Origin: Taibaiella koreensis
Lineage (GTDB): Bacteria > Bacteroidota > Bacteroidia > Chitinophagales > Chitinophagaceae
DNA: 64,000 bases
Direction: 5' to 3'
NCBI RefSeq assembly: GCF_003545715.1
Contig: NZ_QVNU01000001.1
Location: 1,419,962-1,483,961 of the forward strand
The notes under the pieces are model-generated. The model did not search any database, was not told the origin of the DNA, and saw only the letters and a list, made by a program, of their open reading frames with translations. Every line of letters starts with the position of its first letter. The first letter of the stretch is position 1. Position numbers and translations under genes: made by a program. This document shows, one piece after another, positions 2,567 through 43,737 of this stretch.

Positions 2567-3160
2567 ATGAGCAAATTTAAAACAGGGATCATTACCCTTA
2601 TTATCCCCTTGCTGGCTATTGCCTGCAGGCCCTCTGTCCCGGTGCCTAAACCACGGGGCTATTACCGTATAGAGCTACCCGAGCATGCCTACAGGACTTT
2701 CGACAGCACCGGCTTCCCTTTCCGCCTGGAATATCCGGTATATGGCCATATCGGCCAGGATGTAGATCTGAATAGAGAAGAGCATGCGCCTTACTGGGCC
2801 AACATAGAATTTCCCGGTATGAATGCCACCATATACCTCAGTTATAAGTCCATTACCGATGCGGAGCCGCTGAACAAGCTGATCGAAGAATCATACAAGC
2901 TCTCATATGCGCACGATATCCGCGCCGATTACATCAACACGCCGCAGTTCAGAACGCCTAACGGTCTGACGGGAGTGGCATATAATGTGGGTGGCGATGC
3001 TGCTTCGGCTTACCAGTTCTATGTTACTGACAACCAGCGGCATTTTTTAAGAGGCGCATTGTATTTCAATGTGTCGCCCAATGCCGATTCCCTGAAGCCG
3101 GCATCCGATTTTCTGAAAAAAGATATGGATCATATAATTCAGACCATACAGTTTAAATAA
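2567..3160 (+). CDS. gldD: Gliding motility lipoprotein GldD
   Basis: A 197-residue lipoprotein of the GldD family, which is needed for gliding motility and T9SS-linked secretion in flavobacteria. The signal peptide ends in a lipobox with Cys20 (LLAIAC). The mature chain opens with the family hallmark KPRGYYRIELPEHAYR, followed by FPFRLEYPVYG, the PYWANIEFP stretch and IYLSYKSI. Length agrees with the family (about 180-200). It is the last gene of the coaBC-porD-DUF4296-gldD run and starts 5 nt after the preceding stop. It is expected on the periplasmic side of the envelope. No gldE or other gld genes are in the window, so its partners must lie elsewhere. Confidence 0.92.
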   Translation: MSKFKTGIITLIIPLLAIACRPSVPVPKPRGYYRIELPEHAYRTFDSTGFPFRLEYPVYGHIGQDVDLNREEHAPYWANIEFPGMNATIYLSYKSITDAEPLNKLIEESYKLSYAHDIRADYINTPQFRTPNGLTGVAYNVGGDAASAYQFYVTDNQRHFLRGALYFNVSPNADSLKPASDFLKKDMDHIIQTIQFK

Positions 3161-3197: not shown

Positions 3198-3272
3198 GGC
3201 CCTGTAGTTCAATGGATAGAATAGAAGTTTCCTAAACTTTAGATACAAGTTCGATTCTTGTCGGGGCTACCA
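3198..3272 (+). tRNA. tRNA-Arg(CCU)
   Basis: A full cloverleaf can be folded by eye: acceptor GGCCCTG/CGGGGCT (with G-U pairs), D arm GTTC/GAAT, anticodon arm GAAGT/ACTTT with loop TTCCTAA (anticodon CCT), and T arm ACAAG/CTTGT with loop TTCGATT. The 3' CCA is encoded (3270-3272). A promoter -7 box precedes it and an intrinsic terminator follows directly, so it appears to be a single-gene unit. The anticodon reads AGG codons. Confidence 0.96.
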
Positions 3273-3350: not shown

Positions 3351-3507
3351 ATCGCTCAATGTGATAGATAAAGGCTGTCTCAAAGGTATCAATCGGATCA
3401 CATTGAGCGATTCAAAATGTAAGCAGGCTTGAAGCGTAATTTTTGTCGTGCTGAGCGGAGTCGAAGCACGACAAAAATTACCACGTAGGAGACCTTTCGA
3501 GACAGCC
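3351..3507. repeat. MITE-like composite palindromic element
   Basis: Three nested inverted repeats are visible. A perfect 15-bp pair (ATCGCTCAATGTGAT) lies at 3351-3365 and 3397-3411. A near-perfect outer pair begins GGCTGTCTC at 3373-3387 and is mirrored at 3492-3507 with one extra base. A perfect 16-bp hairpin at 3436-3451/3466-3481 encloses the loop core TGAGCGGAGTCGAA. There is no coding capacity. A related core, CTGAGCCCGTCGAAGC, occurs near 20056, so this is probably a non-autonomous dispersed element. No target-site duplication was identified. Confidence 0.65.
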
Positions 3508-3546: not shown

Positions 3547-3705
3547 CTAGCAAAGAGGTACCTTGGTGCAAAACGCGCTTTGTTGTTGGTTACTCGGAAC
3601 AGGGCTCCTGCCACCTACCATCCTTTGTTGTGCAGGTGCTGTCAGGCTGAAAACGATTAATGCCTTTTTGAGTTTTACTTTTTTAATTGTTTTTTTCCTT
3701 TTCAT
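3547..3705 (-). CDS. Short double-glycine leader peptide (putative RiPP/bacteriocin-like precursor)
   Basis: A 52-residue peptide, reading from ATG at 3705 to TAG. The leader is strongly basic (MKRKKTIKKVKLKK), then LIVFSLTAPAQQRMVGG, which has the shape of Bacteroidota 'natural product precursor'/class I lanthipeptide-type leaders: KxKLxLKK, a hydrophobic patch, QQ.M.GG. Gly31-Gly32 would be the cleavage site. The predicted core is 20 residues and ends SAFCTKVPLC with Cys46 and Cys52. A peptide at 37718-37873 ends in the closely similar SSFCSAAPIC with the same six-residue Cys spacing. No LanB, LanC, radical SAM or peptidase-transporter gene lies nearby. The reading frame, leader and paired homologue support a real gene; the modification type is unknown. 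Confidence 0.66.
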   Translation of the reverse strand: MKRKKTIKKVKLKKALIVFSLTAPAQQRMVGGRSPVPSNQQQSAFCTKVPLC

Positions 3706-9829: not shown

Positions 9830-10072
9830 ATGTTTATGAAAAAACAAAACGTAAGAGTGGCGAAATTATCGTTGCAAAAGAAGACGATCATTAAGCTGCA
9901 GGCTTTTGATCCGACCAAGGTTGTTGGCGGTGCGCCTTTTACCAGCGTTCCCGCAGGGTGTGCTCCGGGATCTCCCTGCAACAATACGCGCAATCATGAG
10001 ACCTGCCGTTGCCAGCGTCTGACAGACAATTGTGTGAGCTTTGCGGTGAATACCGCTACGGCCTGCATCTGA
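9830..10072 (+). CDS. Cysteine-rich double-glycine leader peptide (class I lanthipeptide-type precursor family)
   Basis: An 80-residue peptide (or 78 if ATG 9836 is used). The leader KLSLQKKTIIKLQAFDPTK then VVGG matches the Bacteroidota precursor pattern KLxLxKxxIxxL...GG; cleavage would fall after Gly34. The 46-residue core has six Cys (44, 50, 59, 61, 68, 79) with many Thr, Ser and Asn, suitable for thioether or disulfide formation. A perfect GC-rich hairpin (10090-10125) follows the stop. The gene lies downstream of the caspase-like gene and the 44-residue membrane peptide. No lanthionine synthase or transporter is nearby, so processing enzymes, if any, must be encoded elsewhere. Confidence 0.72.
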   Translation: MFMKKQNVRVAKLSLQKKTIIKLQAFDPTKVVGGAPFTSVPAGCAPGSPCNNTRNHETCRCQRLTDNCVSFAVNTATACI

Positions 10073-19762: not shown

Positions 19763-20212
19763 ATATAGGAATCAGCCCCAAAATAGGAGCAATGAAAAAT
19801 GATCCTTTTGGCTAATGTTAAAATGTTGATCTATGGTCATATGCCCGGCAATGCTGAATTGAAGTTGATATCTGTTGTTAAGCCGGGGTGCGCAGGCCAC
19901 AAAAAAACAGCGGAGCATTGTTTTTTTGCCGCCTTTTTTGTTTCTTTTTTGGCGGACAAAAAAAGAAAAAGATATGAAACCAAGTACAATGACGAATAAA
20001 ATAAACTGACTATCCCGATATAGGAAACATTAGCCAATTCGTCTTGATAACGGTTGCTGAGCCCGTCGAAGCACCATTTATATCTGTCCTTTCGACATGC
20101 TCAAGGACCGAAGATTACTTTGTTTCCTATATCGGGATAGTCACTTAAAATAAAGCATGTTAGCTAGTACTTATAGACGTACAAAACTTTGTTTCCTTTA
20201 TCCGGATAGTAA
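19763..20212. repeat. Dispersed repeat element, copy A (second copy at 33003-33356)
   Basis: The sequence runs closely parallel to 33003-33356. Shared blocks include a leading ATATAGGAA, AAATGTTGATCTATG, GGCAATGCTG, and a roughly 40-bp identical block around GGTGCGCAGGCCACAAAAAA. An end block TATAGACGTACAAAACTTTG is followed by GTTTC(C/T)TTTATCCGGATAG. A hairpin with A7/T7 arms lies in the centre. Copy A differs by the insert at 20007-20143, bounded by perfect inverted repeats. No transposase is encoded; short peptides on the minus strand look like a by-product of sequence identity. It is most likely a non-autonomous mobile or REP-type element. Confidence 0.75.
20007..20143. mobile_element. 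MITE-like insert with perfect 22-bp terminal inverted repeats inside repeat copy A
   Basis: The left end (20007-20028, starting TGACTATCCCGATATAGG) and the right end (20122-20143) are perfect inverse complements. The roughly 90-bp interior carries the palindromic core CTGAGCCCGTCGAAGC. The ends resemble the decayed ends of the host repeat (GTTTCCTTTATCCGGATAG), which suggests that both belong to one family of elements with these termini. Confidence 0.65.
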
Positions 20213-33002: not shown

Positions 33003-33356
33003 AGTGCTATATAGGAAACCAGCCAAAACAGGATCAATGAAAAAAGATCCATTTGGTTAATGATTAAATGTTGATCTATGATCCTATGTCCGGCAATGCT
33101 GCATTAAAGTTGCTACCTGTTTTTAAGCCCGGGTGCGCAGGCCACAAAAAAACAGCGGAGCATTGTTTTTTTGTGGCCTTTTTTGCTTCTTTTTTGGCGG
33201 AGCAACTTTTCTCATGAGCACCATAACAAGCAATAAACATAGATGCGAATAAAAAAGAAGAAGATGGTGACACCAAATAAAAAATAGATAAAGCAAAAGC
33301 GTGCCAGCTAGTATCTATAGACGTACAAAACTTTGTTTCTTTTATCCGGATAGCCA
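33003..33356. repeat. Dispersed repeat element, copy B (see 19763-20212)
   Basis: Parallel to 19763-20212 through most of its length, without the 137-bp insert. It begins at CTATATAGGAAACC and ends GTTTCTTTTATCCGGATAG, decayed inverted termini of the same kind as those at 20007-20143. The central A7/T7 hairpin is extended here to a perfect CCACAAAAAAACA stem. No protein is convincingly encoded. Confidence 0.75.
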
Positions 33357-33657: not shown

Positions 33658-33954
33658 TTAACATCTTGGCGGTGTGGTCAATACACAGAAAGCTGTTGCC
33701 TCAGCGCACCCAGGACCAGCCTTGCAGGAGGCATTGGTTCCGACTATGCACCATTCGATTTGACAAGTCGCTTGTTGCGGATCAGCGGTAAGGCAAAGAA
33801 ACGATGGCGTAGGCTCCCAGCACAGGCAATTCTGGGCAATGGCATAAGATTCGGTGGCGCCTCCTACCATTGCTTGTTGCTGTTGGGAATTCAAAGAGCC
33901 AATCATTGATTTGTTGAGGCTCAGCTTTTTCAGGCTCAGGTTTTTCTTTTTCAT
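33658..33954 (-). CDS. Cysteine-rich double-glycine leader peptide, 98 residues (lanthipeptide-type precursor family)
   Basis: Leader MKKKNLSLKKLSLNKSMIGS, LNSQQQQAMVGG matches the Bacteroidota pattern KxxLSLKKxxI..L..QQ.xM.GG, with cleavage expected after Gly32. The 66-residue core is rich in Cys (43, 45, 54, 64, 69, 77, 83, 90, 98; nine in all), Thr and Ser, and contains Trp47 and Trp68. The odd Cys count and length exceed typical lantibiotics, so disulfide-bonded or thioether-bridged products are both possible. It is the last gene of a minus-strand run (LytTR regulator, two unknown genes, peptide). No modification enzyme or transporter is nearby. Confidence 0.74.
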   Translation of the reverse strand: MKKKNLSLKKLSLNKSMIGSLNSQQQQAMVGGATESYAIAQNCLCWEPTPSFLCLTADPQQATCQIEWCIVGTNASCKAGPGCAEATAFCVLTTPPRC

Positions 33955-35537: not shown

Positions 35538-36223
35538 TTAGGGGAAATTATATTTGTAGGTCCTGCCTACAGGTAGCGCTGTGCCATCCTTTAGGATCAC
35601 CTTAGTAGCATTTGATTTCGATATTTGGTCGATTGCGACGATATGGGACCTGTGGATGCGCACAAATAGGCTGGCCGGCAGCAACTCTTCAACTTTCATC
35701 AGCGAAATGGTAGCAAGCTTTACTGCTTTACCGCAGTAGATAGCGGAGTAGTTTTTTTTAGCCTGGATGTATGTTATCGAAGTCAAGGGGATCATCTCAT
35801 TCCCCCGATTTGTGACTAAAGTTAATGTATCTGGTTCTGTGGTTGGTGCCTCTATTATGTGTGGTGCCCCATTATATCTGGCTTCTACTTTTTTTACAGC
35901 CGTTAGTACCCGGTCAAAATTTATCGGCTTAACGATGCAGTCGATTGCGTTTTCGTGATCAAGGACTTCATATATTACCTCCCTGTGCGCTGTAACAAAT
36001 ATGGTATTTATTCTAAGGTGCTTTAATATCTCTAGGCCAGTCATGGGATGCATATTATAGTCCAGGAAAAGTAGATCTACAGGATTTGCATTTATATATT
36101 CAAACGCCGCCTGATACTCGATAAATGTTCCTACAATTTGAATGCTTGGTATTTTTTCACCTCTCTCAAAAGAAGGTTGATGGCCGCTCTTTCTTGGTCG
36201 ATAATCAGTCCCCGTATTTTCAT
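35538..36223 (-). pseudogene. LytTR-family response regulator, interrupted by a one-base frameshift
   Basis: Two frames together make a normal LytR/AgrA-type regulator of about 228 residues. From ATG 36223 the chain reads MKIRGLIIDQERAAINLLLR then EVKK before a stop. From the shifted frame it continues IPSIQIVGTFIEYQAAFEYI, NPVDLLFLDYNMHPMTGLEI (phospho-acceptor Asp55), FVTAH and IDCIVKPI (receiver Thr and Lys). A LytTR domain follows (NEMIPLTSITYIQAKKNYSA; LFVRIHRSHIVAIDQISKS). The break is at a run of six T (36152-36157 on the plus strand; A6 in the gene): A7 would restore the frame. It may be a sequencing artefact, a dead gene, or slippage-controlled. No sensor kinase gene is adjacent. Confidence 0.85.
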
Positions 36224-37717: not shown

Positions 37718-37873
37718 TCAGCAGATTGGAGCGGCTGAGCAAAACGAGCTTTGCTGGCTATCATTATTCTTAATTTTTCCCACCTTATTTGTGCTTACCG
37801 GCGATCCGTCCAGGCGATGGAAGATCCGGATCTTTTTCAGGTTGATTTTCGGCGACGTATTTCCTGTCTTCAT
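37718..37873 (-). CDS. Short leader-like peptide paired with the 3547 peptide (putative precursor)
   Basis: A 51-residue peptide from ATG 37873 to TGA. The N-terminal part contains KINLKKIRIF, the same kind of basic/hydrophobic patch seen in the double-glycine leaders at 3547 and 33658, though the GG itself is replaced by LDGS. The C-terminal decapeptide SSFCSAAPIC resembles SAFCTKVPLC of the 52-residue peptide: same length, same Cys spacing (Cys45 and Cys51 here), a shared S-F-C and P-[IL]-C, and both follow a QQ pair. The frame could extend upstream to 37909, but those residues do not resemble a leader. It lies in an otherwise gene-poor gap. Confidence 0.5.
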   Translation of the reverse strand: MKTGNTSPKINLKKIRIFHRLDGSPVSTNKVGKIKNNDSQQSSFCSAAPIC

Positions 37874-39160
37874 ATCGGTTTTGGTTTGGCTGCATCCATA
37901 GACATGCACTATTCCGGAAACGTTTGGTCAGGTAGAAAAACGGTGGTATAAGCCTGGTGCTGTATAGATCTAAGACCCGGGTTGCCTGCGCCTGCTGTGA
38001 AAATGACCTTTAGACGGATAGAGAAGTCGATTTCGATCAAGGCTGAATGGAATGGTAGGTGATTATCTGTTATGGGAGTAGTTTATCGGTATATTATTTG
38101 AGGAACAAGGTTAGTCTATAATTGTAGTTTGATTACTCCAGGCCTTAAAGAAAAGGCATGAGATTTGCAGTTGGATTTTATATTTCAAATAGACGTATTC
38201 AATAAACTAAGAATTTTAATAAATAATTTTCTTTGTTGCAAACAAGAAAATAAAATTCAAATAAGACATAAAGCCGAGGCTGTAGCGGTGGAAAACCTGC
38301 AGGTGTATGGATCGTATGTAATATTACTATTCGGGTAATATCTTATTCCTATGCTGGCGGTTCAACCGGTCGGGACCAATAGTATCTTTTTTGGTAAGTA
38401 TGCTAAGCTTCATACTTCCTGGTGTTTGTAACAACTCTCGTTGTTGTCATCAGGATCAACTGATCCCACTCCTGGTCTTACACTGTTGCTGCGAGCGATT
38501 CTATTGTACCGCGAACTTAATTTTCACCCTTTAGGGTTATAGGCGGGTAAACGATCTCATCGGAATTTTGCATTATTGTCAACAAGGGAATTTTTTCATC
38601 GACATCACAGTATCGACATTGCCGAATTGTATTTGCAGGCAGGCGCTACCAGGCTGGTAACAATACGCCGGCAGCTATCGAAACTAAAGCGGAAGCTTTG
38701 CCGCCAGCCTGTAAGGGGCTTGTATGTCCGGAAGCCGGTGTTCTTATTACAGCAGCCTTTTTGTTGACAGGAGTTTTGTACGCAGAAGCTTCTTGTGCTA
38801 TTCCTGTATGTGGTTTTGCCGGTTGTTTACTTGTTACAGAATGGTGTTGGCATTGCTGTGAGCGATCATCATACGACGCTAAAAAGTCTGCCGGTTTGTT
38901 GGAATGGATTCCTGCGGCAAAGAAAGCCTGTGGCAAATCTCTTTCGGCACCGATAACGCTATTCTGTTCTTCCGGGAAGAATGCCTGATTATGCCTTGAA
39001 TTCACCCTGTAAGGTGAGTGCCTTCTGTCAGAAGGGGGTCGAACTTTGCCGGTAAGTTCTCCGGGGTACGATGTATACATCATCTCCTGCGCCGGCAAAA
39101 GGAAAGGCAGAATGTTTTACAGATAAAATCATCATTGTTAATCTTAAGCTAAGTAAAATT
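37874..39160. other. Gene-poor gap, nothing recognised
   Basis: The first half (to about 38570) is AT-rich, with no frame over 60 codons. The second half (38576-39098) is nearer 50% GC and open on both strands for up to 150 codons, but the translations have no recognisable domain and no supporting promoter or ribosome-binding site. It may contain decayed coding sequence. The promoter for the gene at 39161 should lie at its right end; no clear TAnnTTTG was seen. Confidence 0.4.
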
Positions 39161-42100
39161 ATGAACAAAATGAACGACCCCTTGAATGGTACCATCCCCG
39201 TTCCAGGTGGTCCGGGCCCGGCCAATCTCCTCCCTGCAGAGGCACACAGGCCTACCGGACCGGACCATCGGCTAAGGCCGAACCACCAGGTGAAGCTGCA
39301 CTTATACCGTGAAACGGCGAAAACGCAAGCCGGTTTTTATTTGCGCCGGTTTTTCCTGCTTTTTTGTATTGTTTTTTTTGCAAAAGGTCCTTTGATATAC
39401 GGTCAGGCAGTTACGCCTTTTGACTGCAGTAACATGGGCTATCAGACTGTAGCCACGCAATCAGGTTCTAATTGGACTACTGCCCTGTATGCATATAATG
39501 TAGCTACGGGCATCCGCCAGCAGGTAGGTAGTAGCATACATTCGAGCTTAATGCGGTAGGTTATTCAAACATCGACAATATGATTTATGCTTATAGACTT
39601 AGCAGCAGCCAAATCGTAAAAATTGATGGCAACGCCCAATATACACTCATTACCGTACCTAACCTGCCTGCCACCATTCGGTTCAATGCCGGTGAAGTGA
39701 CGCCGGACGGTTATTTACTTTTAACCTTTAATGCAAACGCCGGCTATTATTATGTTGATGTAAATCCTAACCGCCCGGCTTCTTATGGCCGGATTGTAAA
39801 TCCCCAAAGCGCCACTTACCCTTACCCGGTGATTACCACGGCGCCTTTTGACAGGACATTTACAAATACCCCTAATGCTAATGACCTGGCTTATAATCCT
39901 GCTGACGGACTTTTTTATGGTATAACCAATGCCAACCTGACCGATCCTACTCTTAGATATAGAATTGTAGTGGTCAATCCTAAAACTGGAGTGGCTACTT
40001 ACCTGTCGCCTGCTGTTTCGGGAGGCAATATCCAGACGGAAGCAAGTGCTTATGGCGCTACTTTCTTTGACGCCAGTGGCGGATTTTATGTCTTCGCCAA
40101 TAGTCTGGGCCGGTTTTTCCGGGTGAATATCGCCGCCAGGACGGCGGCAACCGTAGGGCCGGTTTTTGCAGCATCAGCCAGTAACGATGGCGCGATTTGC
40201 CCGGCTGCCCTGTTTGTGAACGTTACCCTATCAGGCAATGTATACAACGATATGAACGGACTTTCCGATAATACCGTAAATGGTACAGGCGTCAATCCCG
40301 GCGGTTTGTATGCTGTGCTTTGGGATGTGACTGCCGGCAAGGTACTGGATACAGTATCTGTAGCGGCTAATGGCACTTATACGTTGGCTGCTACTCCGAG
40401 CAAAAATTATAATGTAATCATTACCACGCAGACCGTAGCTATAGGCGCTACCACGCAGCCGGCTTCCGCGCTTCCTTCCGGATGGCGGAGCAGGGGAGAG
40501 AACCTGGGCGCCGGCGCGGGCAGTGATGGCAATGTCAACGGTGTACTGACTGTAGCGGTGGGCACGACCAATGTGACCGATGCCAACTTCGGCATCAACC
40601 AGGTGCCGGTAGTGAGCAACGACACCTTAACGAACCAGACGCCCGGCACGCCGGCTACAGTACCCAATGTGCTGGCCAATGATAATGATCCGGGCGGCGG
40701 TACCTTATCGCCCGATAGCATCAGCCTGGTACCGCCTGCCGGCGCAACCGGCTTTGTTGTCGACGCGCAGGGCGATACAACCGGCTTCGCCGTGCCCGGG
40801 CAAGGTACCTGGACCCTGAATGCCAACGGCAGCGTGACCTTTACGCCCGAACCGGGCTTTACCGGCGATCCCACGCCGATAGGCTACACGGTTACCGATA
40901 ATGCCGGTCTGCCCGGCAACACCGGCACGATTTTTATCGATTTCACCCCGCCACCGGCACCTATAGCGGTGAATGACACGGCTACGACGACGATCAATAC
41001 GCCCCTGAATGGAACGGTAGCAGGCAATGATACCTGCGGCATCGGCGGCGGGGCCTGTAGCTACAGCCCTCTGGCATCTGATCCGCCTGCGAACGGCACG
41101 TTGAGCCTGAACCCGGACGGTACCTATACTTATACACCCAATCCGGGTTTCATGGGCGCCGATACCTTCAGTTATACGATCTGCAAAAACGGCCCGCCGG
41201 TATTGTGCGATACGGCTATGGTGTTCCTCACGATTACCGGCCCTCCTGTAGCAGTAAACGATACGGCAAGTACACCAATGAATACGCCGCTGAATGGTAC
41301 GGTAACGGCTAATGATGTCTGTGGTCCCGACGGCCCCTGCAGCTATAGCCCCCTGGCTTCGGACCCGCCCACAAACGGTACGGTAACCGTGAACCCTGAT
41401 GGAACGTATACCTATACACCCAACCCCGGCTTTAGCGGCACAGATACCTTCAGCTATGTGGTGTGTAATAGCGCTACACCGGTGGCATGCGATACGGCCA
41501 TGGTATTCCTTACCGTGACTGGTCCTCCTGTAGCGGTGAACGATACGGTAAGCACTCCGATGAATACACCGCTGAACGGCATCGTAACAGATAATGATAC
41601 CTGCCGTATAGGCCCTTGTAACTACAGTCCGTTGGCTTCTGATCCGCCCACGAATGGTACGGTAACCATAAACCCCGATGGTACCTATACCTATACACCC
41701 AACCCTGGCTTTAGCGGCACAGATACCTTCAGCTATGTGGTGTGTAACAGCGCCACACCCGTGGCATGCGATACGGCTATGGTGTTCCTTACCGTAACTG
41801 GTCCTCCTGTAGCGGTGAACGATACGGTAAGCATACCGATGAATACACCGCTCAATGGCACAGTAACGACCAACGATACCTGCCGTATGGGACCCTGTAG
41901 CTACAGCCCGCTGGCCTCTGACCCGCCCACGAACGGTACGGTAACGGTGAATCCCGATGGTACCTATACCTATACACCCAATCCTGGCTTTAGCGGCACA
42001 GATACCTTCAGCTATGTGGTGTGTAACAGTGCTACGCCTGTGGCATGCGATACGGCTATGGTGTTCCTTACCGTAACCGGCCCTCCTGTAGCGGTGAATG

Positions 42101-43737
42101 ATACGGTAAGTACCCCAATGAATACGCCGCTCAATGGTACGGTAACTGCCAACGACACCTGCCGTATGGGACCTTGTAATTACAGTCCGCTGGCTTCCGA
42201 TCCGCCCACGAACGGTACGGTAACCGTGAACCCTGATGGAACGTATACCTATACACCCAACCCCGGCTTTAGTGGAACAGATACCTTTAGCTATGTGGTG
42301 TGTAATAGTGCTACGCCAGTGGCATGCGATACGGCTATGGTATTCCTTACCGTGACCGGTCCTCCTGTAGCGGTGAATGATACAGTAAGTACCCCAATGA
42401 ATACCCCGCTCAATGGTACAGTAACGACCAACGATACCTGCCGTATGGGACCTTGCAGCTATAGCCCATTGGCTTCCGATCCGCCTACGAACGGTACGCT
42501 GAGCCTGAATCCAGACGGTACCTATACTTATACGCCCAATCCCGGCTTTAGCGGAACGGATACCTTCAGCTATGTGGTGTGCAACAGCGCTAGTCCTGTG
42601 GCGCTGTGCGATACGGCACAAGTGTTGCTTACGATCACCAGTCCTGCGGCTGTTAATGACACGGCGACTACACCGATGAACACACCCGTGAACGGCACCG
42701 TTACCACTAACGATGTTTGTGGTCCCGATGGGCCCTGCAGCTATAGCCCCCTGGCTTCTGAACCACCCACAAACGGCACGTTGAATCTGAACCCGGACGG
42801 TACCTATACTTATACGCCCAACCCTGGCTTCAGCGGAACAGACACCTTCAGCTATGTGGTGTGCAACAGCGCTGTGCCAACGCCCGTTTGTGATACGGCG
42901 CAAGTATTTTTAACAATTACAGGAGCGCCCGTAGCTGTGGATGATACGGTAACCACGCCCATAAATACGCCGCTCAATGGTACGGTGACTGCCAATGATA
43001 CCTGCCGTACAGGACCCTGTAGCTATAGCCCACTGGCTTCGGATCCACCTACCAGCGGGACGCTGAGCCTGAACCCGGACGGTACCTATACTTATACGCC
43101 CAATCCCAGCTTTAGCGGCACAGATACCTTCAGCTATGTGGTGTGCAACAGCGCTGTGCCGGATGCTCTTTGTGATACGGCACAAGTAATCGTACGGGTA
43201 GGTAATATTGTCCCTGTTGACCTGCTGTCCTTTACTGCCAAGGCCGAAGCGGATTGCGATGTGCAGTTGAGCTGGCGCACTGGAGTGGAGTTGAACTTTG
43301 ATTACTTCGAGATCGGTTGGAGCAGCAACGGCGCCAGCTTTACCGGGGCGGGCAGGGTAGCGGCACGTGGCTCCGGCAATAGCTACAGCTATTCGTTCGG
43401 CCATGGTGTAAAAGGTATGAACTACTTCCGCCTGAAAGAGGTAGACCGCGATGGCAGCTATCACTACAGCCGCATTGTATCGGCCAACCTGGGTTGTGCA
43501 CCACAACGGCATATCAAGGTTTACCCGACGGTTCATAAAGGGCTTGTTACAGTAGAAGGCCTGCAGGCAGGAGAGTCGGTGATGGTATACGATATGAAAG
43601 GTATTGCTGTGTTGCAGACCAAAGCAGCGGGCCCTGTGGCTGAGCTGAACCTATCGCATACTACAGCGGGTAGCTATACGGTGATCGTGATATTGCAGAC
43701 CGGCGAACGGATGCATTATAAGATCGTGAAGCAATAG
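39161..43737 (+). pseudogene. T9SS-secreted repeat protein with eight Ig-like domains, frameshifted near 39540
   Basis: Two overlapping frames form one exported protein. Frame 2 (39161-39559, 132 residues) has an unusual roughly 57-residue polar extension (MNKMNDPLNGTIPVPGGPGP, Pro/Arg/His-rich) before the signal helix FYLRRFFLLFCIVFFAKGPL and YGQA. It continues to GIRQQVGSSIHSS and stops. Frame 1 takes over at FELNAVGYSNIDNMIYAYRL and runs 1385 further residues or more to 43737. It contains a DUF6923-like region, one SdrD_B/SpaA-like linker region, a first Ig-like module, eight near-identical Ig/cadherin-like modules, and a C-terminal T9SS sorting domain (YPTVHKGLVTVEGLQ ... MHYKIVKQ). A single missing T (CATTCGAG in place of CATTTCGAG) would restore the frame. 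It may be a sequencing error or a real inactivating change. Confidence 0.85.
40963..43200 (+). repeat. Eight tandem Ig/cadherin-like coding repeats of about 280 bp
   Basis: Each unit starts [IV]AVNDT...NTPLNGTV, continues C-(x)-GPC[SN]YSPLASDPP and ends with GTYTYTPNPGFSGTDTFSYV, then VCNSA...CDTAMVFLT. Units begin near 40963, 41242, 41527, 41806, 42085, 42364, 42643 and 42928. Units 3-6 are nearly identical in DNA and protein; the outer units are more diverged, as expected for recent internal duplication. Each has four conserved Cys in the order C-C-C-C (NDTC, GPC, VVC, CDTA). Confidence 0.93.

Follow-up and report, generated by a model that had tools for sequence, protein, structure and literature searches.

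Three short peptide genes of Taibaiella koreensis, two of them in the window (the whole 64,000-nucleotide stretch of DNA that was analysed) and one just outside it, are probably divergent short precursors of class I lanthipeptides. They would be putatively modified in trans and belong to a set of about 128 precursor-like genes scattered over the same genome. We put the probability of this reading, which is built on comparisons of sequence, at roughly 0.7.

Three related short peptides

The features on which the argument depends are given below by coordinates in the window, except for the third copy, which is given by its position in the genome.

2567..3160, (+): gldD (PF25593 GldD_lipo, 203.7 bits), synteny anchor of the 3547 peptide
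3198..3272, (+): tRNA-Arg(CCT), which lies between gldD and the 3547 peptide and serves as a synteny anchor
3547..3705, (-): short Cys-ended peptide of 52 aa (MKRKKTIKKVKLKK...VGGRSPVPSNQQQSAFCTKVPLC), a divergent precursor-like copy with GG
9836..10072, (+): canonical class I lanthipeptide precursor of 78 aa with a GG leader and a Cys-containing core (NF038153 26.1 bits, over the cut-off)
33658..33954, (-): canonical class I lanthipeptide precursor of 98 aa with a GG leader and a Cys/Ser/Thr-rich core (NF038153 32.1 bits, over the cut-off)
37718..37873, (-): short Cys-ended peptide of 51 aa (MKTGNTSPKINLKK...QQSSFCSAAPIC) with an ATG start
G000:C10:1416645-1416800, (-): third copy, 51 aa (MKKQNTQKKIQLKKISIVSRLEKPTQEQVKGGSDAVSCNQQSSFCSKVPLC), with a leader that ends in GG

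The original prediction described two frames 34 kb apart that end in SAFCTKVPLC (3547) and SSFCSAAPIC (37718), and both are present as described. They share the C-terminus S-[SA]-F-C-[ST]-x-x-P-[LI]-C, and the QQ pair and N-terminal Lys patch ascribed to them are found in both, with QQ directly ahead of the shared C-terminus and KxxLKK close to the N-terminus. The signature S-F-C-x3-P-[IL]-C that had been proposed for them holds as a shared C-terminal pattern, in which the common part is [SA]-F-C and not S-F-C. The 3547 peptide is convergent with gldD and lies downstream of tRNA-Arg, and the longest open frame of the 37718 peptide extends to a GTG at 37909.

The agreement between the two frames had been judged unlikely to arise by chance, and the alignments bear this out. 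Over the whole peptide the local BLOSUM62 score is 69, against a shuffle mean of 21.0 (sd 3.9, maximum 46), and none of 5,000 shuffles reaches it, nor does any in a separate set of 2,000. The C-terminal parts alone score 50, likewise reached by 0/5,000 shuffles, and the leader parts alone score 37, a value matched by 4/5,000. Among the 519 window ORFs of 30-120 aa the two peptides are each other's best match, the second-best score being 34 for 37718 and 59 for 3547, the latter to the canonical precursor at 33658-33954. At the DNA level, clear likeness between the 37718 and 3547 regions is limited to about 18 bp, so the pair does not represent a recent DNA repeat. Searches of the two peptides against Pfam and NCBIfam returned no more than two matches, to DBR1 (E 0.086) and to DUF6209 (E 0.18), both taken as chance and rejected as identities.

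When the 37718 region was searched as DNA against the T. koreensis genome (G000; 5.94 Mb in 24 contigs), a 75% match across 52 bp came up 3.2 kb beyond the window, at the site of the third copy. This peptide is 53% identical to the 3547 peptide and 47% identical to the 37718 peptide, scoring 128 against the former (shuffle maximum 49) and 100 against the latter (shuffle maximum 45). The three peptides are homologous across leader and core. In their alignment a conserved Ser and a conserved Ser/Thr precede two conserved Cys, and the potential ring residues are thus kept; the cores have 19-20 aa and two or three Cys, the median for other cores in the genome being six.

Several further features of the window were recorded. 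Adjoining the 3547 peptide, positions 3448-3469 carry a hairpin-forming sequence, GTGCTGAGCGGAGTCGAAGCAC, that occurs as a single copy in the window at up to three mismatches and that we take to be REP-like. A scan around 37718 found no promoter-like site and one terminator-like site, which is at chance level. A similar stretch of about 190 bp, probably non-coding, occurs twice, at ~19765-19960 and 33040-33240. At 39580-43737 (+) lies a gene for a 1385-aa protein with long internal repeats, in which internal short ORFs recur at about 280 bp.

A dispersed stock of precursor-like genes

The whole genome was searched with NF038153, the class I lanthipeptide leader family, which has a curated cut-off of 22 bits. 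There are 129 places that match at E<=10, 124 that match at E<=1 and 90 that reach 22 bits; the same search in 14 control genomes gave matches at E<=10 in five of them and none over the cut-off. When the two window copies are added, 128 of the 131 places yield an intact ORF of 50-109 aa that starts with MK. The places left out are C16:549447 (a 201-aa protease-like frame), C17:536789 (an ORF that starts with MEE and is probably a real precursor) and C16:155127 (a 26-aa frame). The last, at G000:C16:155127-155225 (+), is a precursor leader with an in-frame stop. The 128 precursors are spread over 96 places, 73 of which are single genes.

These genes have a strongly uneven composition. The 125 cores that can be split at GG contain 13.6% Cys, 12.2% Thr and 1.6% Lys, and the corresponding leaders contain 0.2%, 5.2% and 21.1%, values calculated from a set of 129 that includes C16:155127, with n=128 for the other counts. 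Two or more Cys are present in 124/125 GG-split cores, and overall 124/128 genes have a Cys-bearing core in which Ser/Thr at least equal Cys. GG is found in 125/128, including the 3547 peptide and the third copy, and is missing from 37718. The sequence TAnnTTTG, the Bacteroidota -7 motif, lies within 80 bp upstream of 21/128 precursors (4.0 in shuffles), and is not used as evidence because it is paired with a -33 box in 3/128 only (1.0 in shuffles).

The three peptides differ in how closely they approach this stock. The third copy matches NF038153 at 17.8 bits (E 0.0028), which is under the curated cut-off, and the window copies have no match at E<=1, a result that counts against the lanthipeptide reading. 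A leader model was then built from 125 precursors, namely the 128 minus the trio. The third copy scores 26.8 bits on this model (E 2.5e-7). At 6.7 bits each, the window copies score about as high as the top shuffle out of 400 (7.0), and the model does not support their membership. The canonical precursors at 33658-33954 and 9836-10072 score 54.8 and 42.9 bits, both being among the training rows.

Each member of the trio was also aligned pairwise to the 125 precursors with 300 shuffles each, a procedure that tolerates an extra residue better than the leader model. The best and mean scores are 68 and 43.0 for the third copy and 64 and 37.1 for the 3547 peptide, and 0/300 shuffles reach any of these values. 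The 37718 peptide is marginal, with a best score of 47 (reached by 9/300 shuffles) and a mean of 25.2 (5/300). The alignments therefore tie 3547 to the precursors directly and 37718 mainly via the other two copies. The small family of dispersed peptide genes that had been proposed gains a member in the third copy, which shares the C-terminal signature, but it is not an orphan family, since the third copy and 3547 align far above shuffles with class I lanthipeptide-type precursors of the genome.

Walker et al. (2020, PMC7268733) report the leader motif LxLxKx5L in several class I precursors from Bacteroidota. All three copies of the trio need six residues in place of the five. Among the 125 other precursors the strict x5 form occurs in 107/125 and the relaxed form in 124/125; the strict x6 form occurs in none and the relaxed x6 form in seven. 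Judged by the curated NF038153 cut-off or by the published motif, 0/3 trio copies belong to the family. With its altered leader spacing and no GG, the 37718 copy is, on these leader features, the least certain member.

The genome encodes the enzymes that such precursors would need. LanB (PF04738) occurs at two loci, on C16 and C20. The C16 locus combines a full-length LanB with genes for a precursor, an HlyD protein and a C39-peptidase ABC transporter, and on C20 the second LanB adjoins a LytTR regulator and a histidine kinase. LanC (PF05147) is represented by four genes located away from the LanB loci, and precursors adjoin the three that were inspected. Counting the two LanB loci and four LanC genes, 10/128 precursors lie within 10 kb of LanB or LanC and the remaining 118 do not. 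Neither enzyme is encoded near the trio (1.416-1.458 Mb of C10), the sole enzyme gene of that contig being a LanC at 0.625 Mb. Some precursors and LanB/LanC genes have a LytTR-type regulator or a histidine kinase nearby (L159; L267, by eye; window 35538-36053; L017:225-1496), which may reflect a regulatory link or coincidence.

Conservation in relatives and competing explanations

Four genomes of the genus were compared. Leader matches at E<=1 number 124 in G000, 79 in G001, 71 in G002 and 0 in G003, and LanC genes number 4, 6, 4 and 0; that G003 is without both leaders and LanC counts in favour of the lanthipeptide reading. Of the 150 leader places in G001 and G002, three weak ones were omitted from the sequence reading. 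In a family sample of 98 genomes, which does not contain G001 and G003, seven genomes match at E<=0.001, with at least 71 matches in G000, at least 46 in G002 and between 1 and 7 in each of the remaining five. LanB is present in 13/98 of these genomes, so six LanB genomes are without such a leader. A search with the C16 LanB returned 14 Bacteroidota LanB loci, the nearest from Taibaiella helva (89%) and T. chishuiensis (56%) and the remainder from other Bacteroidota, several of them metagenome-assembled. The leader model is positive within 10 kb on either side at 12/14 of these loci (all except L278 and L279, with L281 weak at 15.3 bits), and in 0/1,632 ORFs of the reversed loci used as a control.

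Precursors were paired between species as reciprocal best matches, and pairs under the score limits were removed (8/52 for G002, leaving 44, and 18/34 for G001, leaving 16); the pairs are selected by whole-peptide score, which biases them toward conserved cores. For the 44 pairs of G000 and G002, median identity is 0.84 in cores versus 0.77 in leaders, and the core is better kept in 31/44. The corresponding dN/dS is about 0.08 for the core and 0.14 for the leader, of which the direction alone is used because silent sites are near saturation (dS above 1). Core residues kept in these pairs are Cys 263/266, Thr 215/242, Ser 115/133 and Pro 151/176, with Pro equal to Ser. For the 16 pairs of G000 and the more distant G001, the core is better kept in 10/16 and Cys is kept in 78/91 (0.86). 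Here Ser (32/54, 0.59) and Thr (48/88, 0.55) are kept no better than Gly (0.63) and Pro (0.61), which counts against the lanthipeptide reading. The retention of Cys looks as expected of thioether-forming cores, and disulfide cores would show the same.

The trio itself has a narrow distribution. The original prediction envisaged a search of related genomes, and this places the SFC..PLC subfamily in its own genome only: no ortholog is found at E<=1e-4 in the three congeners G001, G002 and G003 (1/4 genus genomes positive), none at E<=1e-5 among the remaining 393 of the 394 family genomes sampled (1/394 positive), and none is confirmed in a wider genome-contig collection that may omit the T. koreensis genome. 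Orthologs of gldD are present in all three congeners, and the same tRNA-Arg(CCT) follows gldD in two of the three. In G002 this site carries an intact leader-like ORF of 55 aa, a possible ortholog of the 3547 peptide with the same order and orientation. It scores 13.6 bits on the leader model and has a different C-terminus, one Cys, and AG replacing GG. Its likeness to 3547 is weak over the whole peptide (score 32, matched by 57/5,000 shuffles) and in the leader (49/5,000), and is at shuffle level in the core. In G001, where gldD and the tRNA are present, no such peptide was seen among the ORFs by eye; in G003 gldD is present and the tRNA was not found within the stretch examined. Decay of the frames by stop codons in relatives, which the prediction had raised, was looked for at the gldD/tRNA-Arg site alone and none was seen, the frame being either absent or replaced by another peptide.

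A precursor of the canonical kind also lies close to the third copy. An adjoining ORF on the other strand scores 25.3 bits with NF038153, over the 22-bit cut-off. The canonical precursor at L017:1794-2030 (+) is oriented divergently to the third SFC..PLC copy, and its core is almost identical to a G002 core (C30:161471 on) that lies on the other side of gldD in G002.

These distributions bear on whether the window copies are genes in use. It is unlikely that the third copy works while the window copies, or at least 37718, are old duplicates that are losing their leaders and stay open through shortness. Such decay would suit the shuffle-like leader-model scores of both window copies, the lost GG and marginal resemblance of 37718 to other precursors, the lack of orthologs in congeners, and a syntenic G002 peptide that is also without GG and has one Cys. 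It is opposed by the pattern of substitution: the best-kept part of the trio is the peptide end, and over the last 12 codons pS (0.70-0.84) exceeds pN (0.11-0.32) in all three pairs, a contrast based on few sites and on a stretch chosen after the likeness had been noticed. This contrast is the outcome, in the tail, of the test for purifying selection that had been proposed for the core residues. Over the whole core, as compared between the third copy and 37718, pS is 0.70 and pN is 0.49, and the core beyond the tail is not kept.

It is more doubtful again that the trio forms a functional family derived from lanthipeptide precursors but no longer using LanB/LanC, for example as a disulfide peptide or as a decoy or regulator of the machinery. 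The x6 leader spacing shared by all three copies and so rare among the other 125 precursors, the one copy without GG and the small number of core Cys would all fit a departure of this kind, but Ser/Thr are conserved at the positions that thioether rings would need. That the likeness arose by chance between non-coding frames, or that the peptides are a misread repetitive DNA element, is hardly credible and was rejected, for although the window frames lie outside larger ORFs and their short DNA match is near-palindromic, whole-length protein homology is far above shuffles, a third copy exists, and the protein likeness is held while silent sites differ widely.

Proposed pathway and comparison with known systems

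As divergent lanthipeptide precursors, the peptides of the trio would each be made as a leader plus a core, with the leader serving as the binding site for a LanB dehydratase whose gene lies elsewhere in the genome. LanB would dehydrate Ser/Thr of the core to dehydroamino acids, and LanC, also encoded elsewhere, would join Cys to the dehydrated residues. The predicted product of the trio has two rings, the smaller formed by S-x-F-C and the larger by [ST]-x-x-P-[LI]-C. The C39-peptidase ABC transporter would then cut after GG and export the core. Expression, modification in trans, ring pattern and export are all predicted from the genes, and the biological role of the peptides is perhaps in competition or signalling.

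A broader proposal, which we regard as evenly poised, extends this to Taibaiella-type bacteria as a group. They would hold a larger-scale class I counterpart of the prochlorosin system, with some 70-130 dispersed precursors in each genome being modified in trans by very few LanB and a small number of LanC. Between species, many cores would individually be under purifying selection, so that each peptide would have its own job. The trio would represent a young lineage limited to the strain, and its altered leader spacing would reflect changed recognition by the enzymes. Provided that the enzymes act in trans, the stock offers class I enzymes a natural set of substrates. The conservation of cores from one species to another would permit a direct test of the purpose of dispersed lanthipeptides, which is still open for the prochlorosins.

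Pinensins originate from Chitinophaga. Together with the class I lanthipeptides of Pedobacter lusitanus, they are named in PMC12328550, where Pedobacter class I lanthipeptides are cited, and in PMC7268733; both groups belong to the same phylum as Taibaiella and are also class I. The literature search found no paper naming both Taibaiella and lanthipeptide, subscription literature being mostly outside its scope. Among the matches listed, judged by their titles and the opening of their abstracts, no description of a dispersed class I stock of comparable size was recognised, which is weak evidence of absence, and the available portions of PMC10609062 and PMC11251773 contain nothing on one.

Compared with the Bacteroidota class I precursors described in PMC7268733 and by NF038153, the trio is alike in its Lys-rich start, LxLxK-type leader, Cys/Ser/Thr-rich core and GG before the core (except in 37718), and in the presence of a C39 transporter and LanB in the genome. 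It differs in having x6 rather than x5 spacing, a short core (19-20 aa, two or three Cys), no GG in one of the copies, and enzyme genes that are not nearby. The stock as a whole differs from those precursors in that 118 of its about 128 genes have none of the LanB/LanC found here within 10 kb. Precursor mining in PMC7268733 covers seven genes on either side of LanC-like genes, and mining tied to the enzyme neighbourhood would therefore largely miss such a stock.

The nearest parallel in organization is found in class II. PMC10783134 describes dispersed sets of 29 prochlorosins (ProcA) per one ProcM and 79 synechococsins (SyncA) per one SyncM, and calls the function of prochlorosins unknown. 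The Taibaiella stock resembles these systems in its many scattered precursors, few enzymes, GG leaders and presumed action in trans, and differs in relying on class I LanB and a separate LanC, not LanM, and on another leader family. Within each strain, prochlorosin leaders are conserved and cores less so according to the same text, whereas in the pairs compared here Taibaiella cores are kept at least as well as leaders between species, the within-strain comparison of PMC10783134 being of another kind.
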